Positions 1-21,168 of a stretch of DNA of 21,168 nucleotides are shown here, piece after piece; the stretch's first letter is position 1; the number at the start of each line of letters is the position of its first letter. The DNA lies in IMG/VR virus record IMGVR_UViG_3300037189_008394, positions 1-21,168 of that record, one strand, 5' to 3'. The notes below the pieces were generated by a model that had not been told where the DNA came from, ran no database searches, and saw only the letters and a program-made list of their open reading frames with translations. The DNA comes from a virus. A program made the position numbers and the translations under genes.

Positions 1-720
1 AGCGGCAGTATAATACGCAAAAGGGTTCTGCGATTTTGACTCGTCAAATTGCAGTCCGATTTGACTGAGTTGTAACAGGGCTTGTCCCCGCATTTCTTCG
101 TTGTATGTATATCCACGCCAGTTGCTCCTTGTTGCATATCTCTCGCATAATTTCATAAACATTAATGCCAGTTTCTTTGTCATTGTTCCATGCTCACGAC
201 AAAATTCCCCGGTTTCTAAATCGCCCTTCCAGTGACTCTTTCCTACCAGATACGGAATTTTATGATCTGTGATGCGGTAGTGATAGAAGGGTGGGAAATT
301 TAAACGAATTCTTGTTGGGTTAAGAACAACCACATCAACAATATCTTCTAACGGATCATCGTCGGCTTCGATTTCTAATAAGTCTTGTATTTTTTGCTTT
401 TTGCCCGCAGTCTTTGGTACTTTCTTTGGAGCCATTGGTATGTGATCCCAGCAGGTAATGCGAAAAACTAAATCTGTATTTGGTATTTTTTTTGGATCAA
501 CAATAGTTCCTTCTCTTTTTAATCGATCTGCTCGGTTTCTTCGAGCCTCAGCTATGGTGCGAATATTAATTTTGTCAACGCTGGGTAGAATTATGTCGTA
601 CTGGTGATCAAGCACAGGATCGCGAAAAACGCAGTATGTATTTTTTGATAGGTGTATTTCTTTTAAAATATCACGATTATTTAGGTAATTTACTTTTGCA
701 GGTGTGCGTATTAAAGACAT
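1..720 (-). CDS. 55: gp55-like late-transcription sigma factor (3' end cut by window edge)
   Basis: In T4, gp55 is a small sigma-like factor that binds host RNA polymerase core and, with the sliding clamp, recognises TATAAATA late promoters. The 240 visible codons start at ATG 718-720, with AGGAGG six bases upstream, and run off the left edge, so the C-terminus is missing. Residues 11-30 (NYLNNRDILKEIHLSKNTYC) match the start of T4 gp55 (YVNNKELL...). Residues 201-240 contain GYTYNEEMRGQALLQLSQ followed by FDESKSQNPFAYYTAA, matching the T4 gp55 core (GYT...EM...NFDETKYKNPHAYIT), the sigma region-2-like part. About 150 residues separate these blocks, against roughly 30 in T4. As I remember them, cyanophage gp55 proteins also carry this longer middle, with FPPFYHY and an SHWKGDL...GEFC...HG segment, so it is probably clade-typical and not a foreign insertion. 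The gene is divergent from the structural genes it would activate. Confidence 0.87.
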   Translation of the reverse strand, partial: MSLIRTPAKVNYLNNRDILKEIHLSKNTYCVFRDPVLDHQYDIILPSVDKINIRTIAEARRNRADRLKREGTIVDPKKIPNTDLVFRITCWDHIPMAPKKVPKTAGKKQKIQDLLEIEADDDPLEDIVDVVVLNPTRIRLNFPPFYHYRITDHKIPYLVGKSHWKGDLETGEFCREHGTMTKKLALMFMKLCERYATRSNWRGYTYNEEMRGQALLQLSQIGLQFDESKSQNPFAYYTAA

Positions 721-5400: not shown

Positions 5401-5493
5401 GCTGCCGATGATGGCACTGCATATTATGCCGGCCTTGGTGAAGATGTGTTTGTAACCACCACAGGTGGCCAATTAATGGATAGAGAAGCATAA
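2485..5493 (+). CDS. Large baseplate hub-like structural protein (candidate gp27 functional counterpart)
   Basis: This 1002-residue protein lies between gp53 and the gp5-like spike. Residues 1-55 are charged and leucine-rich with coiled-coil character. Residues 57-200 are acidic and probably disordered. An ordered core starts near 212 (YASYTYELGWYILKPGEISK) and runs on through LLVQSGG (247-253) and FDLDFYFDELQMTSLLPG (about 296). It includes a beta-rich stretch at 405-441 (FVPFLLQDIKFRVENK) and RGLHKRYNYWFTGLNNSVLK near 693. The last 110 residues are acidic and rich in T, S, E and D. I recall similar large proteins next to gp5 in aquatic T4-like phages, annotated only as structural. Its place just before the spike suggests the ring that gp27 forms in T4, but the protein is over twice as long as T4 gp27 and I see no direct sequence match. 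The ribosome site is weak, so coupling to gp53 is likely. Confidence 0.62.
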   Translation: MSKVQVLEAERTRLLEERDVLAAQYQAGDTSVLPQIQEINAQLREVVLQIEALSSLPVDSSGQIVTNAQLARDDGANTQIPELGRQIIDAEGRISFAEDNDTTPSNANKYSVNVDIGTDGEVRTLGETQTVSGPAEQGEMVSEPWYDAGSTQEDLEIRNSSPGVLISDRSQPGVGANDDSGAVTSKNVQQQTIDKLFANNKVSPQRNVLDDYASYTYELGWYILKPGEISKLMNTSQVNRAISGKQLLVQSGGAASRRPTSNANTASITDPTINTDPNSLEPVVVIGAGSGRNEFFDLDFYFDELQMTSLLPGGGAGTMAAHQNSELSFRIIEPNGISLISRLRSAVAKLYGDTYKAMGNNPANYVTAQYCLVIRFYGYDENGRAVQVGTTGATGESDEEVDNYYIEKFVPFLLQDIKFRVENKLVEYNITAKPIAYNFNIGSARGPIPYNLELTGKTIKEVLIGKTPNTTVSADATGLTRDDQFGQYDPTDSDFGAFGEPPTGTAPAPSNIVSAPNKKNNYTGLVEALNEIQQQHVKNKIYSIADEYVIEFAPDSIGGARVAKQGSVNKKVVPMQQTTTAADITLGDKQSMDINSRGFSVLAGTAVVQFIDQVMKTSGYISQQQLQVIDETDGTVRKNGTPANQVAWYKINFQASPIAYDPLRRDFAYKMKYVISAYGITTLQSEYFPDSKFRGLHKRYNYWFTGLNNSVLKFEQNYNALYQIVISGSPLGSTFANIYDSRQYTPRVFQPRSGQSSQYAEGRSNEPAANAADYLYSPTDQADVKLRIIGDPAWLQQGEVASAVNAKTFNFSPFLADGTINFDASEIAFDITWNRPQDYNLSTGVINPRPLNSNMDRENATYRATKIVSYFNKGSFEQELYGRLLPLSTAGSKTSSVDFAQKSIDLGTDADRETGSNVDPGIRTQGTLEPGEEIATDNTSPDSSETQISESATTPQPAEMAEAATSNGDIDSAADDGTAYYAGLGEDVFVTTTGGQLMDREA

Positions 5494-7745
5494 TGGCAGA
5501 TAATATTTCAAGAAGTACAGGAAGAAGTAAAAATTACAAGTTTGATCGAGGAGGTATGCCCTCTGAGTTTGGACCATTTATTGGCATAGTGACTAACAAT
5601 GTTGACCCAACAAGATCTGGTAGACTACAAGTTTGGATCGCAGAGTTTGGATCAGTTAACAAAGATGGCACACCAAATTTAACCGACGAATCAACATGGC
5701 GTACCGTCAGTTACCTTCCACCATTCTATGGCATAACTGAACACAGCGGTGCCCCAACTGGTGCAGGTGGATTTGTTCCGGGCAACAGACAATCTTATGG
5801 CATGTGGTTTACACCGCCTGACATTGGCGTAAGTGTAATGTGCTTTTTTGCCGGTGGCGATCCAACACAAGGGTACTACGTAGGATGCGTGCCTGAGCCT
5901 GGCCTTAATCACATGATTCCAGCAATTGGTGCCAGCAAAAAGTTTAAAATAACTAATCCTGCACAAGCCAATTATTTTGCTGGAGCAACACAGTTACCAG
6001 TAGTTGAAATCAATGATGAAAACGAAGGCATAGACAAAAATCCTAAATTCTATGACTCACAAAAACCAGTACATAGTGTACAGGCTGCAATTTTATTTCA
6101 GCAAGGTCTAGTCACTGACAACATTCGCGGCCCTATCACCAGCAACAGCCAACGTGAAAGTCCCAGCACCGTATACGGCATTTCGACTCCAGGCCGACCT
6201 GTGTACCAGGGCGGGTTTGATCCTGCTGAAATAAAACAAAAATTACAAACAGGACAGATTAAACCACAGGACATTATGGTAATCGGACGCCAAGGTGGAC
6301 ACACCTTTGTCATGGACGATGGCGACCTTACTGGAAAAAACACATTAGTTAGAATTCGATCAGCAAAAGGCCATCAAATTACAATGAGCGATGATGGTAA
6401 CTGTTTTTACATTACACATGCCAACGGTCAAACATGGTTAGAGTTTGGTGCAGAAGGCAGTGTCGATGTGTTTAGTACAAACTCAATCAACCTTAGAACT
6501 AAAGGCACATTAAATTTTCATGCTGATGGTGATATTAACATGTTTGCCGGAAAAACTGTGAACATAAAGTCTGGTTCTAACACCACAATTGAAGCGTCGG
6601 CTAAATTAAATCTTATATCTCAAGCTGCCACAACAATTTACAGCAAAAGTGTACTGGGCTTACTCAGCGATGGTGCATTGAACTTAAAATCAAAATCTGG
6701 TGGCTGGAATGGTGGGTCAGCACTAAACATTCAAGCCGGTTGTATTAACTTAAATGGCGGTGGGGCACCTTCAGTTTCGCCTCCTATTAGTCTGCGAGAT
6801 TTGTCGCTGACCGATGTTAAGTTTACCACCAGCGGATGGAAAGCTCAGCCAGGCACACTAAAAACAATTGTTACTCGAGCCCCAACACACGAGCCTTATC
6901 CGTACCACAATCAAGGTGTTAATGCAGTTACAAGTCTTGGAGAAGGTATACCGGCCAAACTAGAACCATCTGCAGAAGAAGCAATTTTTGCTGCCGAGGA
7001 CGCACCGCTTGAAGATCAAATTGACATTGCTGATTATACAGAGCAACCAACTGCTGATGACGGCCTAGGATCTTTAGATCAAGATGAATTTACTGGCGTA
7101 CTTGCACAGTCTGCGGTATCAACTGGACAACAATTTGATGAAATAGTACCAACTGATGACAATGTGTCAGTTGGTGCATATGGATTAAATTCAGGACAAC
7201 TAGAAACACTGGGATATGTTAAACCTGGAACAACACAGCAATTGATCAATGGTGATCCAACTACAGCAGAAAAAGTACTGGCTAATCCGTCAGTATGGAC
7301 CGGTAAAGGTGGCATTAATACATTAACTGGATTTTTATCTGACAAAAAAACACAGTCAACTGCACAACAGGCATTATTTGCAGCCACATTATCTGGACTA
7401 AAACAAAAAGGTGCAGTAACTGGCAACGAACCGTCAACACAGCTTGGAGGAATACTGCAAGTTGGTGCTAAGTTTGGTGTTGACACCGCAGTTAAATGGT
7501 TAAATGGAAACGCACCGTCGAGCTTGATTAATAATATTGCTAAGACTGCTAGACAGGGACTTTATGCCACTGCATTTTCAAATCAGAAGCTTGGTAGCCT
7601 TGGGCGTGCAACTGTACCGGGTTATAATAACACTGTGCAACGATCAAGCATTGACACCGCAGTTGGCGCTATTATTAATAGTTCAAAAATACCAACCCCA
7701 GATTTTAGTAACCCAGGAACAGATAATGCTGATGAAAATGTTTGA
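5493..7745 (+). CDS. 5: gp5-like baseplate central spike protein without visible lysozyme domain
   Basis: gp5 forms the trimeric cell-puncturing spike under the tail tube. An OB-fold like that of gp5 and VgrG begins at residue 23 (PSEFGPFIGIVTNNVDPTRS, then GRLQVWIAEFG) and continues to about residue 135 (GGDPTQGYYVGCVPEPG). Residues 270-425 hold short alternating repeats typical of the triple-stranded beta-helix, such as SINLRTKGTLNFHADGDI and KTVNIKSGSNTTIEASAKL. A THEPYPYHNQG motif follows near 465. The T4 protein has a lysozyme domain between OB-fold and helix. Here that stretch (about 150-265) looks unrelated, with no catalytic pattern I can identify. Residues 560-700 form another domain (YGLNSGQLETLGYVKPGTTQ, then VWTGKGGINTLTGFL) of unknown function. 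With 750 residues it is longer than T4 gp5 (575). The start overlaps the previous stop (TAATG). Confidence 0.85.
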   Translation: MADNISRSTGRSKNYKFDRGGMPSEFGPFIGIVTNNVDPTRSGRLQVWIAEFGSVNKDGTPNLTDESTWRTVSYLPPFYGITEHSGAPTGAGGFVPGNRQSYGMWFTPPDIGVSVMCFFAGGDPTQGYYVGCVPEPGLNHMIPAIGASKKFKITNPAQANYFAGATQLPVVEINDENEGIDKNPKFYDSQKPVHSVQAAILFQQGLVTDNIRGPITSNSQRESPSTVYGISTPGRPVYQGGFDPAEIKQKLQTGQIKPQDIMVIGRQGGHTFVMDDGDLTGKNTLVRIRSAKGHQITMSDDGNCFYITHANGQTWLEFGAEGSVDVFSTNSINLRTKGTLNFHADGDINMFAGKTVNIKSGSNTTIEASAKLNLISQAATTIYSKSVLGLLSDGALNLKSKSGGWNGGSALNIQAGCINLNGGGAPSVSPPISLRDLSLTDVKFTTSGWKAQPGTLKTIVTRAPTHEPYPYHNQGVNAVTSLGEGIPAKLEPSAEEAIFAAEDAPLEDQIDIADYTEQPTADDGLGSLDQDEFTGVLAQSAVSTGQQFDEIVPTDDNVSVGAYGLNSGQLETLGYVKPGTTQQLINGDPTTAEKVLANPSVWTGKGGINTLTGFLSDKKTQSTAQQALFAATLSGLKQKGAVTGNEPSTQLGGILQVGAKFGVDTAVKWLNGNAPSSLINNIAKTARQGLYATAFSNQKLGSLGRATVPGYNNTVQRSSIDTAVGAIINSSKIPTPDFSNPGTDNADENV

Positions 7746-7770: not shown

Positions 7771-8145
7771 ATGCCAACATTCATCGGATTCAACACTGTC
7801 GACCAACCTAAGAAATTTACGTTAACAAACTTTGATTTAGTTAAACGAGATTTTTTAAATGCCATTAACATCAGACAAGGGCAGTTAGTAGGCCGTCCAG
7901 GCTACGGAACTACCTTGTGGGATAACCTGTTTGAAAGTCAAACACAGGCCACACAAGCTGCCATTGAACGAGAAATACAACGTGTAGCTGGATTAGATCC
8001 ACGACTTTATATTAAATCAATTAACGCATATCCTCAGCAAAATGGAATATTGTTAGAAGTTGATGCTGCCATGGTACCTAGCACCGACGCTCAACGTCTA
8101 AGCATTTTCTTAGACCAAGAATCTCGACGAGCTAGTTACATATAA
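7771..8145 (+). CDS. 25: Baseplate wedge protein gp25
   Basis: gp25 (GPW_gp25 family) is a core wedge subunit with gp6 and gp53 and has relatives in type VI secretion baseplates (TssE). This 124-residue protein has about the usual length (T4 gp25 is 132). The family signature appears as GRPGYGTTLWDNLFE at residues 41-55. It is followed by the helix TQAAIEREIQRVAGLDPRL and the strand GILLEVDAAM, both as expected. ATG 7771 has no clear Shine-Dalgarno sequence and is preceded only by AT-rich DNA with a late-type box. The partner gene 6 lies 44 bases downstream, the usual pairing in aquatic T4-like phages. Confidence 0.92.
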   Translation: MPTFIGFNTVDQPKKFTLTNFDLVKRDFLNAINIRQGQLVGRPGYGTTLWDNLFESQTQATQAAIEREIQRVAGLDPRLYIKSINAYPQQNGILLEVDAAMVPSTDAQRLSIFLDQESRRASYI

Positions 8146-8189: not shown

Positions 8190-11100
8190 ATGGCAAAAAC
8201 TACAAGACAAACCGCAATATTTGGAGTTGAAGATTGGAAAAGAATCTATCAAACCTACCGAGAAGCTGACTTTCAAAGCTACGACTTTGAAACTCTACGC
8301 AAGAGTTTCATTGACTATTTGCGCTTGTACTATCCAGAAACATTCAATGATTATATTGAATCCAGTGAGTTTATTGCTTTATTAGATGTTATGGCCTTTA
8401 TGGGGCAAGGACTGGCATTCCGCACTGATCTTAATACTCGAGAAAACTATTTAGACACTGCCGAGCGCCGAGACAGCGTGGTTAGATTAGCTAACCTAGT
8501 AAGCTATACACCCAAAAGAAACACAGCCGCACACGGCTACTTAAAAGTTTTTTCTGTTTCTACCACAGAAAATGTCTACGACTATAATGGCATTAATCTT
8601 TCAAATATCACAGTTAACTGGGCAGACCCTACAAACCCAGACTGGCAAGAACAATTTACCAGTATTATCAATGCCGCATTGGTGGACAGTCAAAAAATTG
8701 GCCGCCCAGGCAATTCACAGACAATACTAGGGGTAAAAACCGACGAGTACGGAATTAGTTTACTGCCTGGCTTCTTGCCAATCATACCCTACAATGCCAC
8801 AGTTGACGGGGTATCAATGCCGTTTGAAGCAGTGAACTCTACCAGCGTGGGGAAAACATATCTGTATGAACCAGCACCGCGCCCCGGAGTACCGTTTAAT
8901 GTACTATACCGTAACGACAATCTAGGATACGAAAGTCCAGACACGGGTTATTTCTTTGCTTTTAAGCAAGGCGTGTTACAAAATCAAGACTTTAATTTAG
9001 CAGAACGTATTTCTAATAGATCCGTTAACATTAATATTGAAGGTGTTAACAATGATGACCGTTGGTTATTTCAACTCAGCAATGTAGGCAGCATTTCTAA
9101 AGAATGGACCTATGTTGACAGCGTGTATAGTGCCGCAGTAGAACAACTATCTCCAAATTTAAGATCGCTGTTTTCTGTCAGCAGTAGAACCAATGACCAA
9201 ATTACTTTAAACTTTGGCGATGGCGTATTCAGTCAGATCCCAGTAGGCTTGTTCCGCTGTTACGTTCGTGCCAGCAACGGTCTTGAATACATTATTAATC
9301 CTGAAGAAATGCAGAGTGTAAGTCTGCCTATCAGCTATGTTAGTCGTACTGGACAAAACCAAGTAATAACATTCACCTGCGGTATCACAACACCGGTGTC
9401 CAATGCATTGGCTAGAGAATCAATAACAGAAATTAAACAACGTGCGCCTGCTCGTTACTATACACAAAATCGTATGGTTAACGGTGAGGACTATAACAAT
9501 TTTCCGTTTACTGCATACAACAGTATTTTAAAAAGCAAAGCTCTTGCACGTAGCAGTATTGGTACCAGTCGATATCTTGATCTAGTAGATAATACTGGAA
9601 AATATTCAAGCACTAATACGTTTGGCAGCGATGGCGCCTTGTATGAAAACAATGTGTTACCTACAATTTTATTCAGCTGGCTAACCACCAACGACATTGT
9701 TGATGCAATTACAAACAAGCTACAGCCAAATTTAGTTGGCAGTTTGATGCATCAGTTTTACTATGCTAACTTCTACCGCCCATCATTGACAACTGGATTA
9801 CCAGTTACCTGGCACCAAAGTACCACACAGGTCAACGAAACCAGTGGTTATTTTGTAGTGTCCGGTAGCCCAGCCCCAATTGGATTCTATTCTGGATCTA
9901 ATACAAAGTATATTACAGTTGGTTCTATTGTAAAGTTTGTGCCACCTCCTGGTTACTTTTTTGACGCAAACAATAGACTCAAAGTTGGGACTCCGGTACT
10001 AGCCGATGAAAAATTAGAAATATGGGCATCGCCTACCAGTGTAATACTTGACGGTACTGCACAAGGTGTTGGCAACTTACCTAACGGAGTTGGTCCAGTA
10101 GTTTTAAATAATTTTGTTCCTACTGGCGCAATTGCCAGTCAGGTTATTCCGTTGTTTAACACCGACTTGCCCACAGACATACAGCAACAGATGCTAGAGC
10201 AAATTGAGTTGTTTAGAAATTTTGGACTTGGGTACAACAATTTAACCAACACTTGGTATGTAATTTCTTCAACAAACTTAGATCAAGATGCGGCATTTAG
10301 TTTGGCTAACGCACAATCAACATTAGGCATTAACAATGATGCCAGCTGGCTAGCACAGTTTGTAACAAATGGCGAGTCTTATACTATAACTCTAAGAGGC
10401 CTAGCATACTATTTTGGTAGTGTATTAAAAACTAGATTCTTCTTTAACGATGGTAACAAAATCTATGATAGCCGCACAGGAACAACTATTAAAGATTTTA
10501 TCAATGTGTTAAAAACCAATAGCAAACCTGACTCTAATCAGCCTTTGCCCGGTGACATATACATGACCATTGTTGGTCAACCTGTACAAAGCGACGGTTA
10601 CGTTGACGACTTTCAGGTATTAGTAAGTTATCGAGACAGTGATGCAGATAATGTTCCTGACAACCCTGACTTTTTCTCTGAAATTGTTGGACCAGAACCA
10701 ACATCGGGACAACCCGGTAGTCTAGTGTTCTTGCAGGAAACAGTTGACTTTGATAACCTGCAGAGATATCTGTTAGTTGAAAAAGACATTGTCAACTATT
10801 CCTATGCTACACAGTCTGCAATTGAAGCAGTTAAATTGGAATATGTCCCTGGACAGGTATTTTATGCATACACAGATAATGCATTTTACATCTTAGTTGA
10901 AAATATTGATGGTGTTAGATCGTTACAATCAACTACAGAATTTATTACCCGCAAAGGACGCCAAGATCTATATTTCCAGTATAGACACAATAGTCCATTG
11001 ACCAGCAGGATTGATCCCGGTACTACCAACATTATTGATTTGTATGTCGTGACACAACAGTACTATACTGCATATCAAAACTGGGTGCGCGATACCACTG

Positions 11101-11600
11101 ATACAATACCTATGCCCGAGATGCCAACAATTAATCAGTTAAGCAATGAATATGCAGGACTGCAAGAATATAAAATGATATCCGACAATGTTGTGTTAAA
11201 CTCGGTGACATTTAAACCATTATTTGGCGCCAAGGCAGCCAAAGAATTGCAAGCAACAATAAAAGTTATCAAGGCAGCAGGTAGCACAGCCAGCATCAGT
11301 GAGATTAAGAATTTAGTGATTGCAAACATTAACAACTATTTTACCATTGACAAATGGAATTTTGGAGACACGTTCTATTTCTCAGAATTAGCCGCATACC
11401 TACATAAACAAATGGGAGATGTTATCAGTTCAGCAGTATTGGTTCCGTTAGACATACAAAAGAGTTTTGGCGATCTCTATGAAATTCGTAGCGCACCCAA
11501 TGAAATATTTGTTAATGCAGCCACAGTTGCGTCAGTTGAAGTTATCGACGCATTAACAAGCACAAATTTACGCACAGCACCCGGTAGTGGAGTTATATAA
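8190..11600 (+). CDS. 6: Baseplate wedge protein gp6 (enlarged)
   Basis: gp6 forms the ring that holds the wedges around the hub and drives baseplate rearrangement on infection (baseplate J-like family). The N-terminus is typical. It has YQTYREADFQSYDFETLRKS (residues 20-39), YIESSEFIALLDVMAFMGQG (55-74), then TRENYLDTAERRDSVVRLAN (83-102) and SYTPKR. The C-terminus (about 1048-1087, with WNFGDTFYFSELAAYLHKQM and VISSAVLVP) also fits gp6, as does the following SFGDLYEIRSAPNEIFVN segment. At 1136 residues it is far longer than T4 gp6 (660). The excess lies in the middle (about 450-950), which reads as extra beta-rich modules. The stop overlaps the next start (TAATG). I am confident of the family. 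The role of the middle is unknown. Confidence 0.9.
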   Translation: MAKTTRQTAIFGVEDWKRIYQTYREADFQSYDFETLRKSFIDYLRLYYPETFNDYIESSEFIALLDVMAFMGQGLAFRTDLNTRENYLDTAERRDSVVRLANLVSYTPKRNTAAHGYLKVFSVSTTENVYDYNGINLSNITVNWADPTNPDWQEQFTSIINAALVDSQKIGRPGNSQTILGVKTDEYGISLLPGFLPIIPYNATVDGVSMPFEAVNSTSVGKTYLYEPAPRPGVPFNVLYRNDNLGYESPDTGYFFAFKQGVLQNQDFNLAERISNRSVNINIEGVNNDDRWLFQLSNVGSISKEWTYVDSVYSAAVEQLSPNLRSLFSVSSRTNDQITLNFGDGVFSQIPVGLFRCYVRASNGLEYIINPEEMQSVSLPISYVSRTGQNQVITFTCGITTPVSNALARESITEIKQRAPARYYTQNRMVNGEDYNNFPFTAYNSILKSKALARSSIGTSRYLDLVDNTGKYSSTNTFGSDGALYENNVLPTILFSWLTTNDIVDAITNKLQPNLVGSLMHQFYYANFYRPSLTTGLPVTWHQSTTQVNETSGYFVVSGSPAPIGFYSGSNTKYITVGSIVKFVPPPGYFFDANNRLKVGTPVLADEKLEIWASPTSVILDGTAQGVGNLPNGVGPVVLNNFVPTGAIASQVIPLFNTDLPTDIQQQMLEQIELFRNFGLGYNNLTNTWYVISSTNLDQDAAFSLANAQSTLGINNDASWLAQFVTNGESYTITLRGLAYYFGSVLKTRFFFNDGNKIYDSRTGTTIKDFINVLKTNSKPDSNQPLPGDIYMTIVGQPVQSDGYVDDFQVLVSYRDSDADNVPDNPDFFSEIVGPEPTSGQPGSLVFLQETVDFDNLQRYLLVEKDIVNYSYATQSAIEAVKLEYVPGQVFYAYTDNAFYILVENIDGVRSLQSTTEFITRKGRQDLYFQYRHNSPLTSRIDPGTTNIIDLYVVTQQYYTAYQNWVRDTTDTIPMPEMPTINQLSNEYAGLQEYKMISDNVVLNSVTFKPLFGAKAAKELQATIKVIKAAGSTASISEIKNLVIANINNYFTIDKWNFGDTFYFSELAAYLHKQMGDVISSAVLVPLDIQKSFGDLYEIRSAPNEIFVNAATVASVEVIDALTSTNLRTAPGSGVI

Positions 11601-14600
11601 TGGCACAAGCCCAAGTACGCAGTATTGATTTTTTACCTGAGATTTTTCAAACTCAGACAAATCGCCAATTTTTAGCCGCAACATTAGATCAATTAATACA
11701 AGAACCAAAGTTTAAAAAGACACAGGGGTTTGTAGGTCAAACAGTTGGCCCAGGAGTTAACCCCAACGATTATTATGTCACAGAACCAAGCAAAGTTCGG
11801 AGCGACTATCAACTTGAACCTGGCGTAATTATCAAGAAGCCAGACAGTGACACTATCAAAGATGCAATCACTTATCCAGGGATAATCGATGCATTAACAG
11901 TCAAAGGCGCAAACTCTCCAAACAACGATCGTTTGTTCACCAGTGACTACTATACCTGGGATCCGTTTGTTGACTATGATAAGTTCTCAAATTTTAGTCA
12001 ATACTATTGGCTGCCGCAGGGACCAGACAGTGTAGTTGTAGCCGCAACAACAGTACCAGTTACCAACGATTTTGATGTAACACGTACAAACAAAGGATAT
12101 ACAGTTGTTGGGGAATCTGGTCGCAACCCAACGATCACACTTGTTCGAGGCGGGAATTATACATTTAATGTAAATCAACCTAATCAACCATTCTGGATTC
12201 AATCAGCCCCGGGTGTTACTGGCCAATTACCTGCAACACCAAATCTCAGCAGTCGCGGAGTATTAGGTGTAAGCAACAACGGAGCTTCATCTGGACAGGT
12301 TACATTTAATGTGCCGTACAAAACAGCACAGAACTTTTATTATCAAAATTTAAACAGCATTGGTACAGTGGACTTAGTCACTGACTTAAAATACAGCGAC
12401 ATTAACAATGTTTTCGTCACTGATTTTATTGCCAAGTATGGCGGCATCGACGGCATTAAAGACCTCAACGGCCGCACATTGATTTTTAAACACACTGTTG
12501 AAGATGCAGCCGCAGCAGGCTGGCTAGAAACCACTCAGTTTGACCCAATAGTTCGAACCGCACCTAATCAAGTTGGTGAAAATATCAGTTATGATATTAA
12601 CAGCCAACCATACGATGATGTGCCTTATGAAACAATCACAGACATTATTGTAAGCGGCAGTTCAGATCCTCTTGACGGCCAGCCGGGATCATTTGATTCA
12701 ACTACATACGATCAAGTTACACCTATTAACGACCCAGCTGTTCGCTACGGAATCTGGCAGATTAACTATGTAGCCACCGATGATGGCACATTTTACATTA
12801 AATTAAATGTTTATCAAACTGTAAGCGCACTATCGTCATTCTCTATCAAGTACGGTACAGAATATAGTAGCTCACAATGGTTTAAAAATCAAACTGGATA
12901 CTTTGAAGAATTCCCACTGCTAAGTGCAGTGCAAGATGTATTGTATTATCAAGATACTACCAATCCAGCATTTTTTGGCGAAATTAGATTAATCGATCAA
13001 ACTTCCGATCAAACTTTGTTTATCGAAGATATTATTGGAAAGCCAACATTTACTAGTCCTAACGGGGTTACATTCACCAACGGACTAAAAGTTCAATTTG
13101 AAGGTACAGTTGTTCCTAGCAGTTACCAAGGACAAACATACTATGTTGAAGGTGTGGGTTCGGCAATACAATTATTGCCGGTGGGCAATTTTGTTACTCC
13201 GGAGACATACACACAAAGTGAAACATTACCATTTGACAGTCTTGGATACGATATTGGCAACTTTGATGCAAACTTAAATGCACCGGATATACAAGATTAT
13301 ATTACAATTAATCGAGCAAGCCCAGACTTAAACGCATGGACTCGTAGCAATCGCTGGTTCCACTTGCAGGTAATTTTAGATACTGCAACTTATAATAATC
13401 AGCCACCTAAGCTCAACAATCTAAGACGAGCACGTCGACCTATTTTAGAATTTAGACCCGGCATTAAACTCTGGGACTCGGGCACAAAAGGCAAACAGCC
13501 AATTGATATCATTGACTTTGTACAGACTGATGCATTAAGCAATGTTGATGGTACAATTGGATATAGCACCAATGGCTATACTTTAGTAGCAGGTACTCGA
13601 ATTGTGTTTGCAGCCGACAACGATCTGCAGGTTAGAAACAAAGTATACACTGTGCAATTTATCAAGCCTGACGGAGTGCCACCGCTAATTGCTCAACCAG
13701 TGATTAACTTAGTTGAAGCGCCAGATGCATTAGTGTTACCTGACGAAACTGTTGTCTGTTTAAACGGCGCAACACTACAAGGTGTTACTTTTAGATTTAA
13801 CGGTGACACTTGGATCCAGTCACAGCAAAAGAATTCTGTCAATCAAGCACCATTGTTTGATGTTTATGACAGTCAAGGAATTAGTTTGGGCAACAGAGAT
13901 GTATATCCTAGCTCGTCATTTCTTGGCACAAAATTATTTTCATATGCCGCAGGCTCTGGTTCAGCTGATGATGTTTTAGGATTCCCACTAAGATATTTGA
14001 CCATTAACAATGTAGGCGACATTGTATTTGACAATAATCTTTACAAAGATACATTTTACTACGTTGTCAATGCTTCTAGTATTACTAAAAATATCAGTAT
14101 TGGCACTGTTAGAGAATATTCTGACAGGGTTGTGTTTGAACGAAAACTGGGCTGGCAACGAGCTGTAGTCCAAAGCCGACAATACCAACAATTTAAGTTT
14201 ACCTATGATGGATCTCCGTTAATCTTAGATGTTGTGGTTGTTGACCCTGACTCAATCCCGCCAATAAAATTATATGTTGGATCAAAGTTCCAGGACACTA
14301 ACACTTATACCATTGAACGAAACACAATTGATAACACCACGGTTATAACATTATTGTATACTTACGTGCCCGGCGATGTAATCGAAGTACTGGCATTAAG
14401 TAATCAAGTAAGCCAAATTGGTTTTTATCAAGTCCCAATTAATTTACAAAATAACCCATTCAATGGAAATTCTGACACGTTTACCCTTGGATCAATACGC
14501 AAGCACTACGAAAGTATCTGCGAAAACTTAACAGATTTAACAGGACCTGTTAATGGCAGCAATAATTCTAGAGATCTCGGAAATATTGTTCCTTATGGTC

Positions 14601-17600
14601 TAAACATATTACAACAAAGCAGTCCGTTGACTCTTGCTGGGTATTTCCTGCGCAGTCCAGAGTATGAGATTTTTGCCGCAATTAATTATAATAGTCAAGA
14701 GTATATTAAGTTTAAATCAAAACTATTGTATACAGTTGCTCAAAATGACTATAGCAATATGACCACTGCTGAAATTTTAGATTCAGCAATTGATACTATT
14801 AATCAAGGAAAAACTTCTAGAGATCCATTCTACTGGAGTGATATGTTGCCTAGTGGAAATATCTATACTAGCAACACCTACATTTACAATACAATAAGCA
14901 CACCTATTTTTAATACTGTGCAGTCGTATAATTTTAATAGTTCTAATTATCAAGGTCTGTTGGTATTTTTAAACAATGTATTGCTGACAATAGGCTACGA
15001 ATATGTTGTGACTGAAGATTCTGCGCACATAGAAATTCTTGTACCATTAGTCGACGGGGACGTGGTAGAGATTAGAGAGTATTCGGCTACATATGGAAAC
15101 TTTGTGCCCAACACACCAACAAAGATGGGACTGTATCCATCGTACAAACCTAAAATATTTTTAGATGATACATTTGTAAATCCTCGAATGGTAATACAGG
15201 GTCACGACGGAAGTATCACTGTGGGGTTTGGCGACTTTAGAGATCAAGTGCTATTAGAATTTGAGACTCGAATTTTTGATAATTTAAAAATACATTCCAA
15301 AATACCAATTGTACCAGCTGACGTAATACCCGGCGAGTTTAGAACAACTGGATATTCAAAAGCTGATATCACAAATATTTTATCTGAAAGCTTCTTAAGC
15401 TGGGTAGCTTGGAACAAATTAGATTTTAATAGTCAAACATTTATTGCCGACAACGAGTTTACTTGGAACTATAGTTCATCTGGAAATAAAATTAATGGAC
15501 AACCACTAATTGGCGGTTGGAGAGGCTCGTATCTATACTACTATGACACTATCTCTCCTAATACAACGCCTTGGGAGATGCTAGGGTTCAGCGAAGAACC
15601 TAGTTGGTGGGAAAATAGATATGGTTCTGTGCCATACACCAAAGGAAACTTGGTGTTATGGGACGACCTTGAAATTGGTTTGGTAGCAGATCCTGCGGGC
15701 CCATATATATTACCGCAGTATGCACGCCCGGGTCTTACCAGTATTATCCCTTCAGGTACCCAAGGAGAGCTGCTAAGTCCGTTCGACAGCCTAGTAGGCC
15801 CATACAATTCCGCAAACTTTAAAAAGAGCTGGTCAGTGGGCGATGTTGGACCAGTTGAAGGTAGCTGGATTAACAGCAGTAGCTATCCATTTGCACTAAT
15901 GCGCTTGTATGCATTAACACGACCAGCAGAGTTTTTTGCATTGTTTGCAGACCGTGATCTCTACAAATACAATGCTGAATTTGATCAATATTTGTACAAT
16001 GATCGTTACAGACTTGACGCCAGTGGAGTGCAGATTTACGGAAATGGTACGTCAAAGGCCAGTTATATCAATTGGATTGTGGACTACAATCGACAGTTAG
16101 GGCATGACAGTACTACTATTTTACAAGAAGATTTAGCCAGCTTGGATGTGCGCCTGTGCTATCGCATGGCATCATACACTGACAAACAGTATCTAAAAAT
16201 ATATTTAGAAAAAAGCAATCCTAACAGTACCAACAGCAGTCTGTTGTTGCCCGACGACAGCTACAATGTCTTGCTCTATAAAAATCAACCATTTAAAAGT
16301 ACCACATACAGTTCAGTGGTGGTACAGCGTGTTGAAAAAGGCTATGCAGTCTACGGATACAGCAATGAAAATCCCTTCTTCCAGATTTTGGTTAGCAAGC
16401 CAGTTGGACCAACCCGAACATTGTTTGCTGGGGGAATAACTGTTACAGTGCCAACAGAATATACCAATACAATTGCACAAGTTCCATACGGCTATGTGTT
16501 CACTAATGCCACAGTAATGGCTGATTTCTTGTTAAGCTATGGTGAATTTTTAAAATCCCAAGGCATGGTATTTGAAACTGTTGAGAATGGTTACATACTT
16601 GATTGGCCGCAAATGGCCCAGGAATTTTTATACTGGGTTGGCCAAGGGTGGGCGCCAGGTAGTGTAATTAATTTGAATCCTAATGCTACAAAATTAGTAG
16701 TTTCACAGCCACAGGCTGTGGTTGACAATGTAGTAGTGCAAACCCCTACTAAACAAATACTGGATCAAAATAAAAATAAATTCCCTGCAAGAGACGCAGT
16801 GATTGACCGCAACGGTAATTTGTTTACTATCTCTAGTCCAACTCAACAAACAATATCTTTTGTTGACCTGCAATTTACCAGCTACGAGAATTTGCTAGTT
16901 CTTAATAATGTTAGCACGTTCAATGACTTAATCTACGATCCTATCACAGGATCTAGACAGAGCCGAATCAATATGGTTGGATGGACCACCACAGATTGGA
17001 ACGGAACGGTTGATGCTCCGGGCTTTATTTTCAATGAAGAGACAGTACTTGAGTGGCAGCCGAATAAAAAATATACCAAAGGGCAGATAGTAATTTACAA
17101 AAACAATTATTGGAGCGCACAAAACATTATACAACCAAAAGTAACTTTTGACTATAATGATTGGGTAAAGAGTGACTATACTTTAATACAAAAAGGTATG
17201 TTGCCTAACTTGGCTAACAAAGCTAATCAACTGCAAAACAGTTATAATGTTAACTCGGCAAATCTTGAGCGTGACAACGACCTGTTAAGCTATGGCCTTA
17301 TTGGATTCCGACCACGCCAGTACATGCAGGCTCTTAATCTTGATGATGTCAGTCAAGTAAATGTCTATAAGCAATTCTTAAAGACCAAAGGAACTCGTCG
17401 AGCCATTCAACAATTTACTAATGCTGACCTAGGCAAGGAAATAGCCGAATACAATGTTTATGAAAACTGGGCAATCCAACAGGCAGTTTATGGTGCTAAC
17501 GCAAACAGAAGCTACATCGAACTTCGATTAAACGCCGCAGATTTAAAATCTGATCCATCATTGGTGCAGGTAATACAGCCTGGTCAAGAAAGTGATGCTG

Positions 17601-20600
17601 ATCAAACAATATTATTAAATGATGTCTGGAAAGAAAGTTATAAACTAACATCTACAGATATTTTACCTACCACATATACAACGCCACTTGACAAGGGCTT
17701 GCCCAGTGCAGGATATGTTGACTTAGATGATGTGGACATCACAGTATTTGATCTTGAAGATCGTACTGCGCTTGATGCTTATCTAAGCAATATCAAAGTT
17801 GGCACTAAAATTTGGGTGGCTAAAGTTGATGAGTACAATTGGAATGTTTACAGAACTGATGCTGTGCCCGGTTATATTGAATCTGTCACTGACAACCTAA
17901 ACGGAACCAGCACAGTTAATTTTACTAAACCACACAATCTAGTAGATAATCAAACAATTATTATCAAATATTTTAACCCAGCGGTTGATGGTGTGTACAA
18001 TGTACTAGCAGTTACCGGTGTTAACACTGTGACTATTGCATATACTTTTACTGGAACTGCAACCACAATTGAAGGTGACGAAGGTATTGTGTTTTATACA
18101 CAGACCATGCGCATCAAACAGCCCAGCGACATTGTTAATTTGTCCTATGCTAAACAGTTATTTGCTGGTGCTAGAGTGTGGGTTGACACTGATAGCCAAG
18201 GGCATTGGGAAGTATTAGAAAAGCAAGATCCATTTAAGTCAAGTCAAATACTAGATGTTGGTACAACATACCCACTTGAAGAATTTGGAACATCAGTTGC
18301 ACAAGCTCGCGAAAATATCAGTGCTTTAGTTGGCGCCCCTGGCTATAAAACAGCCGGTGGCGTATATGTTTATCAGCGCAGTCCCAACGTCGGGTATGTG
18401 CCAGATGCTATCATTGAATTAGATGCCACAGCTACATCGGGATTTGGTAATTCGTTAAGCATTGGAAATCAAGATTGGGCGTTTGCTGGCGCCAGCAAGA
18501 GCCGCGGGGACGAAGGTTACGCAGCCGTATTGCATAGATATTCAAATACAGCTTGGCAAATGTGGCAATTGTTTATTGCAGATGATCAGCCAGGATACGG
18601 GTTATACGGAAATTCAGTAGTAGTCAGTGACAATGAACGCTGGGCTTATGTTGGTGCACCTGGCGCTAACTCAGTGTATGCTTATGGCAAAGTTGACGTA
18701 CAAACACAGAAAAAAGAGTTTGTAACTGACGGAACATCATATCAATTTTATATTGGTAATGCTATTCAATTCAACGAAGATACCCAGTTATCAGTGGTAT
18801 TAAGCAATCAATTGTTGATATTAAACACAGATTACACAGTGTTGAACGGTGATACTATTGTATTCCCCGAAGCACCACGTGCATTGCAACCATTGGTGGT
18901 TTCAAGACTTACTAGCACACAATTAGATCGAACCACATACTATAATGTTGTTGCGTCAAACGTAACAGCTTCGGGTGGATCGGGTGCAGTGTTTACTGTT
19001 GTAAACACTCGTGGCGTCTACAACACTTCAGTTTCAAATGGCGGCCTTGGATACATTATTCCTGAAGGATTTTATAATTCAACAGGCAGTAGCGGCACCA
19101 CTTTTAAAGTTGACAGCACAGTTGGCATCGTGCCGGGAATGGTCTGCCTAGGTACAGGTGTAACGGCTGGACAAAAAGTAGTAACTGTGTTAGATTTAAC
19201 AACAGTTATTTTAGATGCACCTCCAAACGGTTTGCCAGTTAACGGACAAAATTATAGATTCTGTCCAGTATTAAAAATTGTAGGCACAGACATTGGCGGC
19301 GCAAGTCCAGCAAATGATCTTTACTTGACAGTGACAAACTCAACAACCACAACTGGCATGGTACAGATTGTAACTAGTTCTGGCAGCGGTGTATCAAATA
19401 ACAACTACTTCCCGTTGTCGGACTATTTCTATACAATTGATAACTTGTATGGCTTTACTGTATTTGTAAACGGAACTATTCAACGGCCTAAACTTGATTA
19501 TGAATTTAACAGTGACAGTAGCGGGCATTATCCATTGCTGTTAGAGTTTATAACTATTCCACCTGCTGGCGCAGAAATTGTAGTTAAGGCACAGTCGTAT
19601 TACGAATACGTTAAAACTATTACAGTCTCCGGTCTACCACAGGATGCAAAGTTTGGTCAGACTGTGAGTTGCACCACCGATGGCCGACAAGTAATCATTG
19701 GTGCTCCATATACCAATGATACCTATGACAAGAGTGGATCGGTATATGTGTTTGATCGTAATGTTCAAAGATATATCATAACTGACCCAACTGTGACAAC
19801 ATTTGCACTGCCTGTTGGTTGGTCTGGACCGGTGTCTGTTATATTGAATAACCAGTTCTTGACCAACAACAGAAACTTTATCGACGGGCAATTTAGTGTT
19901 AACGGTAACAATGTTGAGATCAACAGTAACATCAAATTAAATGTTGGTGACATTTTAGAAATTGAAAATAATATTTTCACTCAACTACAAAAACTCACTG
20001 AAAATACTCCGGCTAAGAATGCATATTATGGATGGAGTACTGATATCTGTAATGTAAATTGTAGCATTTATATCGGTGCTCCCAATGACGACTATGCATT
20101 ATCTAAAGCTGGATCAGTTGAACGTGCTGTAAACCAAGCCAAAGTATACGGTGTGATCACATCTACTGTGCCTAACCCTGCACTAACTGCTGGCAACACA
20201 CTGCGTATTAATAACATGGTTATAGCGGTGCCTGCGTATCCAAACAATAATGTAGCTGGACTAGCTGCCGCAATTAATGCCAGCACAATACCAAATGTTG
20301 TGGCAGCAGTATCCAACGGATACTTGACATTAACTGTGAAAAATTATGATGCTGCCGCAAACTTTAACAAACTAAATGTGTTGCCAGGAGCAGTAGGGTC
20401 AGCATTTACTGCATTGGGATTCAAGCCTTTTGTATACACACAGACTATTGTAAGTCCAGTACCACAGTACTATGCAAAATTTGGTCAATCTGTTAACATA
20501 GATACATCATCAACTAACTTAACAATTGGTGCGCCAAACGGATCTGTAATACAGCCAACAACATTTGATAATGGTCAAACATATTTTGACGGCCGTGCTA

Positions 20601-21168
20601 CTACAATTATTAATCTTATTGAGCGTAGTGGAGTTGTTTACACATACGACTATTTTGAAAGTGCAGAACCATCAGTGGTTAATCCTGGCAAATTTGTATT
20701 TGGACAACAGGTTTATACAGACAACGTCTACGAACAAGATCAGTTTGGTACATCAATTAACTATACATCCGGGGTACTAATGATTGGTGCGCCGGGCTAT
20801 GATGCAGGTGACAGCACTTTATTGGCTTACGGATCAACTTCGGTACTAAATAATCCTAATAGAACACTTGCTTGGGTGCCAATCCGTAAACAATCTCCAA
20901 CAGTTGAAGTGTCACTGTTAAATTCTGTTTACATGTACAACAGAATAACATCGGCAAAAACACAGTTTTTTGATTTTATTAATCCGTTACAGGGTAAAAT
21001 TTTAGGTGTTGCACAACAAAATATTGATTTTATCGGATCAATTGATCCTGCAAGTTATAATATCGGTACAGTTAATAATTTTGGTAATTCGTGGCAGGAC
21101 AATTATGTTGGACAAATTTGGTGGGATACATCAATGGCTCGATTCATTGATCCCAACCAAGACGACAT
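11600..21168 (+). CDS. Giant modular baseplate/tail structural protein, >3189 residues (3' end beyond window)
   Basis: One open frame starts at ATG 11600, overlapping the gp6 stop, and stays open to the last base. The frame agrees at every point I checked along its length. Conserved-looking N-terminal blocks are SIDFLPEIFQTQTNRQFLAA (residues 8-27) and WDPFVDYDKFSNFSQYYWLP (about 119-138). Similar sequences follow gp6 in aquatic T4-like phages as I remember them, annotated only as virion structural proteins. Modules seen in order are a cupredoxin-like sandwich (176-249), a conserved-looking block (NQAPLFDVYDSQGISLGNRD, from about 748), two early copies of a 60-residue beta module, a CBM5/12-like patch (1818-1857), a block with GFRPRQYMQALNLDD (about 1903), and seven FG-GAP-like motifs (about 2228-3080) with inserts. 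No signal peptide or transmembrane segment is apparent. Its place after gp6 is that of T4 gene 7, a wedge protein of about 1030 residues, so a wedge or peripheral baseplate role is inferred. Confidence 0.85.
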   Translation, partial: MAQAQVRSIDFLPEIFQTQTNRQFLAATLDQLIQEPKFKKTQGFVGQTVGPGVNPNDYYVTEPSKVRSDYQLEPGVIIKKPDSDTIKDAITYPGIIDALTVKGANSPNNDRLFTSDYYTWDPFVDYDKFSNFSQYYWLPQGPDSVVVAATTVPVTNDFDVTRTNKGYTVVGESGRNPTITLVRGGNYTFNVNQPNQPFWIQSAPGVTGQLPATPNLSSRGVLGVSNNGASSGQVTFNVPYKTAQNFYYQNLNSIGTVDLVTDLKYSDINNVFVTDFIAKYGGIDGIKDLNGRTLIFKHTVEDAAAAGWLETTQFDPIVRTAPNQVGENISYDINSQPYDDVPYETITDIIVSGSSDPLDGQPGSFDSTTYDQVTPINDPAVRYGIWQINYVATDDGTFYIKLNVYQTVSALSSFSIKYGTEYSSSQWFKNQTGYFEEFPLLSAVQDVLYYQDTTNPAFFGEIRLIDQTSDQTLFIEDIIGKPTFTSPNGVTFTNGLKVQFEGTVVPSSYQGQTYYVEGVGSAIQLLPVGNFVTPETYTQSETLPFDSLGYDIGNFDANLNAPDIQDYITINRASPDLNAWTRSNRWFHLQVILDTATYNNQPPKLNNLRRARRPILEFRPGIKLWDSGTKGKQPIDIIDFVQTDALSNVDGTIGYSTNGYTLVAGTRIVFAADNDLQVRNKVYTVQFIKPDGVPPLIAQPVINLVEAPDALVLPDETVVCLNGATLQGVTFRFNGDTWIQSQQKNSVNQAPLFDVYDSQGISLGNRDVYPSSSFLGTKLFSYAAGSGSADDVLGFPLRYLTINNVGDIVFDNNLYKDTFYYVVNASSITKNISIGTVREYSDRVVFERKLGWQRAVVQSRQYQQFKFTYDGSPLILDVVVVDPDSIPPIKLYVGSKFQDTNTYTIERNTIDNTTVITLLYTYVPGDVIEVLALSNQVSQIGFYQVPINLQNNPFNGNSDTFTLGSIRKHYESICENLTDLTGPVNGSNNSRDLGNIVPYGLNILQQSSPLTLAGYFLRSPEYEIFAAINYNSQEYIKFKSKLLYTVAQNDYSNMTTAEILDSAIDTINQGKTSRDPFYWSDMLPSGNIYTSNTYIYNTISTPIFNTVQSYNFNSSNYQGLLVFLNNVLLTIGYEYVVTEDSAHIEILVPLVDGDVVEIREYSATYGNFVPNTPTKMGLYPSYKPKIFLDDTFVNPRMVIQGHDGSITVGFGDFRDQVLLEFETRIFDNLKIHSKIPIVPADVIPGEFRTTGYSKADITNILSESFLSWVAWNKLDFNSQTFIADNEFTWNYSSSGNKINGQPLIGGWRGSYLYYYDTISPNTTPWEMLGFSEEPSWWENRYGSVPYTKGNLVLWDDLEIGLVADPAGPYILPQYARPGLTSIIPSGTQGELLSPFDSLVGPYNSANFKKSWSVGDVGPVEGSWINSSSYPFALMRLYALTRPAEFFALFADRDLYKYNAEFDQYLYNDRYRLDASGVQIYGNGTSKASYINWIVDYNRQLGHDSTTILQEDLASLDVRLCYRMASYTDKQYLKIYLEKSNPNSTNSSLLLPDDSYNVLLYKNQPFKSTTYSSVVVQRVEKGYAVYGYSNENPFFQILVSKPVGPTRTLFAGGITVTVPTEYTNTIAQVPYGYVFTNATVMADFLLSYGEFLKSQGMVFETVENGYILDWPQMAQEFLYWVGQGWAPGSVINLNPNATKLVVSQPQAVVDNVVVQTPTKQILDQNKNKFPARDAVIDRNGNLFTISSPTQQTISFVDLQFTSYENLLVLNNVSTFNDLIYDPITGSRQSRINMVGWTTTDWNGTVDAPGFIFNEETVLEWQPNKKYTKGQIVIYKNNYWSAQNIIQPKVTFDYNDWVKSDYTLIQKGMLPNLANKANQLQNSYNVNSANLERDNDLLSYGLIGFRPRQYMQALNLDDVSQVNVYKQFLKTKGTRRAIQQFTNADLGKEIAEYNVYENWAIQQAVYGANANRSYIELRLNAADLKSDPSLVQVIQPGQESDADQTILLNDVWKESYKLTSTDILPTTYTTPLDKGLPSAGYVDLDDVDITVFDLEDRTALDAYLSNIKVGTKIWVAKVDEYNWNVYRTDAVPGYIESVTDNLNGTSTVNFTKPHNLVDNQTIIIKYFNPAVDGVYNVLAVTGVNTVTIAYTFTGTATTIEGDEGIVFYTQTMRIKQPSDIVNLSYAKQLFAGARVWVDTDSQGHWEVLEKQDPFKSSQILDVGTTYPLEEFGTSVAQARENISALVGAPGYKTAGGVYVYQRSPNVGYVPDAIIELDATATSGFGNSLSIGNQDWAFAGASKSRGDEGYAAVLHRYSNTAWQMWQLFIADDQPGYGLYGNSVVVSDNERWAYVGAPGANSVYAYGKVDVQTQKKEFVTDGTSYQFYIGNAIQFNEDTQLSVVLSNQLLILNTDYTVLNGDTIVFPEAPRALQPLVVSRLTSTQLDRTTYYNVVASNVTASGGSGAVFTVVNTRGVYNTSVSNGGLGYIIPEGFYNSTGSSGTTFKVDSTVGIVPGMVCLGTGVTAGQKVVTVLDLTTVILDAPPNGLPVNGQNYRFCPVLKIVGTDIGGASPANDLYLTVTNSTTTTGMVQIVTSSGSGVSNNNYFPLSDYFYTIDNLYGFTVFVNGTIQRPKLDYEFNSDSSGHYPLLLEFITIPPAGAEIVVKAQSYYEYVKTITVSGLPQDAKFGQTVSCTTDGRQVIIGAPYTNDTYDKSGSVYVFDRNVQRYIITDPTVTTFALPVGWSGPVSVILNNQFLTNNRNFIDGQFSVNGNNVEINSNIKLNVGDILEIENNIFTQLQKLTENTPAKNAYYGWSTDICNVNCSIYIGAPNDDYALSKAGSVERAVNQAKVYGVITSTVPNPALTAGNTLRINNMVIAVPAYPNNNVAGLAAAINASTIPNVVAAVSNGYLTLTVKNYDAAANFNKLNVLPGAVGSAFTALGFKPFVYTQTIVSPVPQYYAKFGQSVNIDTSSTNLTIGAPNGSVIQPTTFDNGQTYFDGRATTIINLIERSGVVYTYDYFESAEPSVVNPGKFVFGQQVYTDNVYEQDQFGTSINYTSGVLMIGAPGYDAGDSTLLAYGSTSVLNNPNRTLAWVPIRKQSPTVEVSLLNSVYMYNRITSAKTQFFDFINPLQGKILGVAQQNIDFIGSIDPASYNIGTVNNFGNSWQDNYVGQIWWDTSMARFIDPNQDD
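12125..12346 (+). other. Cupredoxin-like beta-sandwich in the giant protein, no copper ligands seen
   Basis: Residues 176-249 read NPTITLVRGGNYTFNV, then QPFWIQSAPG, a GVSNNGASSGQVTFNVP segment and FYYQ. This resembles the tLxRGxxYtFxV...HPFxI...NNG...G.vtFxVP pattern of cupredoxin-like domains. The usual metal-binding His, Cys and Met positions are not present: Q stands where HPF would have H, and no C or second H follows. It is probably a structural sandwich only. The family match is from memory. Confidence 0.4.
14190..19977 (+). repeat. Five dispersed copies of a ~60-residue beta module
   Basis: Five diverged segments share the pattern (V/L)xV(F/I)(L/V)Nxxx(L)...xxY, a loop, then a hydrophobic strand and (P/V)xGDxIxV. 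Approximate spans are 14190-14407, 14910-15090, 18711-18918, 19418-19612 and 19766-19977. Cores include LLVFLNNVLLTIGYEYVV, LSVVLSNQLLILNTDYTV, FTVFVNGTIQRPKLDYEF and VSVILNNQFLTNNRNFID. Three close with GDVIEV, GDVVEI and GDILEI, and one with AEIVVK. The conservation is at protein level only. Copies three to five lie within the propeller region, between FG-GAP motifs. Confidence 0.5.
17051..17170 (+). other. CBM5/12-like carbohydrate-binding patch in the giant protein
   Basis: Residues 1818-1857 read EWQPNKKYTKGQIVIYKNNY, then WSAQ, a spacer with P and the closing NDWVK. This follows the chitin-binding CBM5/12 pattern (W...Y..G..V.Y....Y.A......P....W) in spacing and aromatic positions. In that family the aromatic residues stack on sugars. 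The module is a single short copy, and the assignment is by eye. Confidence 0.45.
18281..20840 (+). repeat. Seven FG-GAP-like motifs, probable seven-bladed beta-propeller
   Basis: Seven segments share (F/Y)G.S......(V/I)GAP...(G)..Y.Y. They begin near 18281 (EFGTSVA...VGAPGY...VYVYQR), 18440 (GFGNSLS...AGASKS), 18599 (LYGNSVV...VGAPGA...VYAYG), 19649 (KFGQTVS...IGAPYT...VYVFDR), 20024 (YYGWSTD...IGAPND), 20477 (KFGQSVN...IGAPNG...VYTYDY) and 20741 (QFGTSIN...IGAPGY). FG-GAP repeats form the blades of integrin-alpha-like propellers, and seven is the canonical number. The calcium-binding DxDxDG loop of integrins is not evident. Long inserts lie between motifs 3 and 4 (about 960 bases), 5 and 6, and 6 and 7. 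Confidence 0.65.
20174..20430 (+). other. Flagellin-hook-IN-like insert between FG-GAP motifs 5 and 6
   Basis: The insert reads AGNTLRINNMVIAVP, NNNVAGLAAAINASTIPNVV, AAVSNGYLTLTVKN and FTALGF. This follows the flagellin hook IN pattern: a strand with INg, a helix LAaaINa, (g)V.A......L.L, and an ending LG. The motif occurs in flagellins, hook-associated proteins and some phage structural proteins. Here it would be a small alpha/beta knob protruding from the propeller. It could instead be a convergent pattern. Confidence 0.45.

Follow-up and report, generated by a model that had tools for sequence, protein, structure and literature searches.

An integrin-alpha-type seven-bladed propeller predicted within a giant baseplate protein of uncultured T4-related jumbo phages

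Neither FG-GAP repeats nor integrin-type propellers are new, and earlier work has described seven-bladed propellers in the tails of podoviruses as well as FG-GAP proteins in algal viruses. In integrin alpha chains (alphaM, alphaL, alpha4, alphaIIb and others), each of the seven blades carries an FG-GAP motif, DxDxDG calcium loops occupy the 1-2 loops of several blades, and an N-terminal strand closes the ring at blade 7. Ligands bind the top face, the loops between strands 3 and 4 form the bottom face, and some integrins carry an I domain at the junction of blades 2 and 3. Among phages, T7 gp12 and the SU10 nozzle protein each contain a propeller of seven blades, with extra domains placed within blades or between them, and have roles in assembly, channel closure and fibre docking; integrins are mentioned in neither paper (PMC6702177, PMC9509320). 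Virus-borne FG-GAP repeats with a proposed attachment role are also found in algal giant viruses such as MntV1, and their authors considered them possibly the first in any virus (PMC11467894). The propeller described here differs from the podovirus nozzles in lying within a T4-like baseplate wedge protein, and from the MntV1-type proteins, which belong to unrelated viruses, are encoded by separate genes and do not belong to any tail machinery. What appears to be new is the presence of an integrin-type propeller in a baseplate protein of contractile tails and its fixation throughout a jumbo-phage clade: a literature search combining FG-GAP or integrin with phage tails, baseplates and jumbo phages did not find this arrangement, although subscription journals and preprints fell mostly outside its scope and absence is unproven.

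The window, meaning the whole stretch of DNA analysed, consists of 21,168 bases of an IMG/VR virus record and contains the following annotated genes.

1..720, minus strand: late-transcription sigma factor (phrog_12791, E=8.3e-56)
5493..7745, plus strand: gp5-like baseplate hub protein (phrog_13211, E=2.8e-36)
7771..8145, plus strand: gp25-like baseplate wedge protein (PF04965, E=1.5e-7)
8190..11600, plus strand: gp6-like baseplate wedge protein (phrog_10646, E=9.1e-279)
11600..21166, plus strand: giant baseplate-associated virion protein, 3189 aa, ORF truncated at the end of the contig (phrog_10938 virion structural protein, E=1.6e-258)

The giant ORF lies downstream of the gp25-like and gp6-like wedge genes, and two structural proteins are also encoded upstream of it. 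Membership of phrog_10938 was seen both in homology across the N-terminal scaffold and in the position after the gp6-like gene, in the window and in the gene order of relatives; the exception is SCTP-2, in which the gp6-like gene is located elsewhere. The sequence-only reading had framed the comparison around cyanophages, which was not borne out. Cultured homologues come from jumbo myoviruses (PA5oct, 121Q, RaK2, Atu_ph07, CBB and similar), which have in common with the window the N-terminal 2000 residues, the C-flank and the position after the gp6-like gene, and the source phage is likewise a jumbo myovirus, related to T4, rather than a cyanophage. The annotation of the PA5oct homologue marks its detection by ESI-MS/MS. 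A profile search against the PDB returned no match to T4 gp7 for the giant protein.

Complete close relatives of the giant protein are mostly about 4,600–5,300 aa long, the longest in the set being those of L084 and L087 (6,150 and 6,268 residues). In one relative, a gene with weak matches to tail fibres follows a short distance downstream of the giant gene. The phage gene was also present on four contigs (L089, L090, L092 and L093) binned as Porticoccaceae, Rickettsiales and Neomarinimicrobiota genomes; these are probably phage contigs within the bins, and the bin names are no evidence of host. Within the N-terminal part, a beta domain at aa 168-262 (nt 12101-12385; NPTITLVRGGNYTF...) looks cupredoxin-like by eye. 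A stretch resembling CBM5/12, a chitin-binding type, occurs at aa 1818-1839 (nt 17051-17116); it is weak in the window (E=0.079), with a best E of 3.6e-5 among the six of eight family proteins that have it.

Seven FG-GAP-like motifs had been read from the letters in one stretch of the giant protein, and the same number was recovered by a regular expression and a repeat HMM, with starts at aa 2228, 2278, 2334, 2682, 2807, 2958 and 3046. The repeat HMM detected exactly seven copies in the window protein, at 18–33 bits each, and FG-GAP_2 (PF14312) matched aa 2228-3071 with E=3.4e-15 and 56.4 bits against a curated cut-off of 23, while the Pfam model FG-GAP (PF01839) had no match in the window. 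When 176 family proteins were scanned over their first 1900 residues, the repeat HMM scored above 6 bits only five times, which indicates that seven in one 850-residue stretch are not due to chance. No DxDxDG-like motif was seen in the seven repeats of the window as listed, in agreement with the reported absence of the usual calcium loops and in contrast to integrins; only four such motifs in total were found across the repeats of 63 close relatives.

AlphaFold2, given an alignment of 65 sequences, modelled aa 2000-3189 with a mean pLDDT of 86.8 and a pTM of 0.82, and the model contained a seven-bladed propeller. Blade geometry was taken from the strand list and the ranges of the structural aligner, and the predicted elements are as follows.

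18227..20884, plus strand: seven-bladed integrin-alpha-type propeller, aa 2210-3095 (AlphaFold2 model, VIA-align)
18236..18253, plus strand: ring-closing strand from the N-terminal side, blade 7 strand 4, aa 2213-2218 (model, integrin alignment)
18284..18415, plus strand: blade 1, FG-GAP motif 1, aa 2229-2272 (motif searches, model)
18443..18574, plus strand: blade 2, motif 2, aa 2282-2325 (motif searches, model)
18605..18694, plus strand: blade 3 strands 1-3, motif 3, aa 2336-2365 (motif searches, model)
18695..19597, plus strand: insert 1, 3-4 loop of blade 3, beta modules, aa 2366-2666 (strand map)
19598..19621, plus strand: blade 3 strand 4, aa 2667-2674 (model, strand map)
19652..19765, plus strand: blade 4 strands 1-3, motif 4, aa 2685-2722 (Pfam, repeat HMM, model)
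19766..19951, plus strand: insert 2, 3-4 loop of blade 4, small beta module, aa 2723-2784 (model, strand map)
19952..19996, plus strand: blade 4 strand 4, aa 2785-2799 (model, strand map)
20027..20134, plus strand: blade 5 strands 1-3, motif 5, aa 2810-2845 (motif searches, model)
20135..20428, plus strand: insert 3, 3-4 loop of blade 5, flagellin-IN-like module, aa 2846-2943 (model, strand map, PF07196 in family)
20429..20449, plus strand: blade 5 strand 4, aa 2944-2950 (model, strand map)
20480..20713, plus strand: blade 6, motif 6, long conserved 2-3 loop, aa 2961-3038 (repeat HMM, model)
20744..20851, plus strand: blade 7 strands 1-3, motif 7, aa 3049-3084 (repeat HMM, model)
20885..21166, plus strand: C-flank, common to cultured jumbo phages without the propeller (flank comparison)

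When the model was compared with 965 PDB chains by VIA-align, the best 50 matches listed were all integrin alpha chains. The best was integrin alphaM (Z 40.7, 2.6 Å over 354 residues, 20 % identity, model range 211-1095), and aa 2210 (model residue 211) was paired with the first residue of the integrin alpha chains. None of these 50 matches is a podovirus nozzle chain, to which the propeller may nevertheless be akin; in a Foldseek search, a cyanophage A4 portal-tail chain ranked eighth. At the sequence level, the profile of the 65-sequence alignment matched only integrin alpha among PDB sequences at E<0.1 (alphaM 4.5e-5, alphaIIb 8.9e-4); the single-region sequence gave no matches in the PDB, the integrins being reached by the profile only. 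A second model, of a distant relative with 27 % identity to the window (L079), had a pLDDT of 79.4 and a pTM of 0.76 and gave Z 40.2 and 2.5 Å over 345 residues, again with all matches listed being integrin alpha; the two alignments have many rows in common, so the models are not fully independent. In these predicted structures the ring consists of seven four-stranded blades and is closed by strand exchange at blade 7, which is the integrin way of ring closure. The predictions strongly support a closed seven-bladed integrin-alpha-type propeller at aa 2210-3095, as the sequence-only reading had suggested for 18281-20840; the extent is slightly wider, as it includes the closing strand ahead of motif 1. 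Integrin alpha chains also have thigh, calf and membrane segments and pair with a beta subunit; the fold is of integrin type but the protein is not an integrin, its flanks being phage baseplate sequence. Some phage entries of BFVD, including one of cyanophage S-TIM5, already have FG-GAP names or match this model.

The three inserts described between motifs were present and more orderly than described, each lying between strands 3 and 4 of the consecutive blades 3, 4 and 5. This places them on one face, which in the model is the face opposite that by which integrins bind ligands, whereas the integrin I domain is on top. All three were folded in the model, apart from stretches of insert 1 modelled at low confidence (about aa 2491-2549). 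Lengths in relatives were 63–355 residues for insert 1 and 84–210 for insert 3. Similarity was loosely coupled to that of the core for insert 1 (rho 0.23) and insert 3 (rho 0.32), compared with 0.51 for insert 2 and 0.64 and 0.48 for the flanks. The flagellin-IN-like label for insert 3 is tentative: the window alone was weak, at 12 bits against a cut-off of 22.7, and in the family PF07196 matched 11 of 22 aligned members (best E=2.2e-5). Extra inserts in top loops were mapped in a few relatives, in loop 2-3 of blade 1 (L040, L051, L057 and L070) and, for L047 and L082, at the junction of blades 2 and 3 that holds the I domain in some integrins. Mean pairwise identity was 0.52 for the propeller core and 0.52 and 0.59 for the flanks, and no hypervariability was seen in the loops of the core. 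The long conserved 2-3 loop of blade 6 (aa 2979-3010, nt 20534-20629) has invariant D2990 and D2997 and could be a metal or ligand site.

The number of motifs was stable among the 63 close relatives spanning the region, with seven in 50, six in 12 and five in one; in a relative with six (L028), the spacing over the missing slot equals two blades. Neither observation that the sequence-only reading had named against itself, separate beta-sandwiches in a predicted structure or a freely varying motif count among close relatives, was made. Fewer motifs were detectable in distant relatives, yet L079, with four, still had seven blades in its model. A tree of 60 sequences, based on the scaffold region, midpoint-drawn and leaving out SCTP-2, placed all 52 motif-bearing proteins in a single clade (support 100/100) that comprises 53 sequences, all uncultured, so that the motif was detected in all clade members but one. 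The other group contained six cultured jumbo phages and one metagenome sequence. The repeat HMM found no propeller motif in these six or in SCTP-2. The flanks of the propeller are common to the seven cultured homologues examined and are continuous or nearly so in several, with only 36 residues between the two flank-matching stretches in CBB, while Atu_ph07 and Phosso have other, long sequence between them. Since the flanks are near-continuous in several cultured phages, the propeller was gained or lost as a single block, in a direction that the midpoint tree cannot tell. In SCTP-2 (L002) a different domain lies between the two flanks, at 18037-19110; a lamin-G-like identity, seen by eye, was not confirmed by Pfam.

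Exact peptide patterns from the propeller alone found no close relatives, and the conserved scaffold was needed; when the propeller region was run by tblastn against cultured phages, only the end of the propeller and the following flank were matched. FG-GAP repeats occur elsewhere in related phages, namely in two adjacent giant proteins of Phosso (L096, 2339-22979; about 3,160 and 3,690 aa, annotated hypothetical), with dozens of FG-GAP_2 repeats, and in a separate Atu_ph07 protein annotated hemagglutinin.

We propose that the propeller is a single block inserted into a giant, conserved wedge protein in the baseplate of uncultured jumbo phages related to T4, with its ring closed by integrin-style strand exchange. 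It would form a rigid platform at the baseplate periphery, without the integrin calcium loops, and the 3-4 loops of the neighbouring blades 3, 4 and 5 may display folded modules that would contact the surface of the host, or a surface polymer, prior to injection. Such a platform for exchangeable surface-contact domains is the likeliest reading, with about even chances. It is favoured by the accessory distribution, by the loosely coupled inserts and by the location in a baseplate wedge protein; the propeller appears accessory because it is absent from the cultured phages compared and present in one 53-member clade. The CBM5/12-like stretch, which lies elsewhere in six of eight family proteins, was also counted for surface contact, and the earlier suggestion that a decorated propeller could serve as an adhesion surface is plausible. 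Prediction and sequence comparison show the fold, its seven slots, where the block is inserted, the topology of the inserts and the clade distribution; exposure on the virion, binding and any particular ligand are what we infer. A bolder and rather doubtful version is that in this clade the propeller is an interchangeable receptor-reading head of the baseplate, whose loop modules are swapped to change grip.

The same data would suit a structural or docking element equally in one respect: conservation of the core matches that of the adjoining baseplate segments and hypervariable loops are absent from it, which leaves the inserts as the sole parts that vary as a host-contact surface would. The inserts also face away from the integrin ligand side, and insert 2 is coupled to the core like a flank. 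An element that holds the giant wedge protein to its neighbours or anchors fibres, with inserts for fibre or plug attachment, has precedent in the nozzle propellers of T7 gp12 and SU10 (PMC6702177, PMC9509320) and agrees with the near-universal presence of the motif in the clade. It is a serious possibility that falls somewhat short of even chances, given that homologues with both flanks function without a propeller, that inserts 1 and 3 come and go too freely for docking sites and that the 50 best structural matches listed were all integrin alpha chains. The propeller could also be imagined as a passive spacer or relic acquired from some bacterial FG-GAP protein and lacking any role of its own, because FG-GAP proteins are common and Phosso and Atu_ph07 carry such repeats in other proteins; retention in nearly all members of a diverse clade, with invariant residues, makes this very unlikely. 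The least probable alternative, with hardly any chance of being correct, is that separate beta domains bearing FG-GAP-like motifs follow one another in a row without forming a closed ring. Large inserts do part motifs 3-4, 4-5 and 5-6, and the ring is a predicted one, but both models form one ring that superposes on complete integrin propellers over 345–354 residues at 2.5–2.6 Å, and the seven slots are retained.

These results place an integrin-type propeller in the baseplate of contractile-tailed phages, where it could be missed because the isolates compared all fall outside the clade that carries it. The propeller provides a concrete, expressible domain for asking how such phages first touch their hosts, and its relatives form a natural series in which different domains are plugged into fixed loops of one scaffold.
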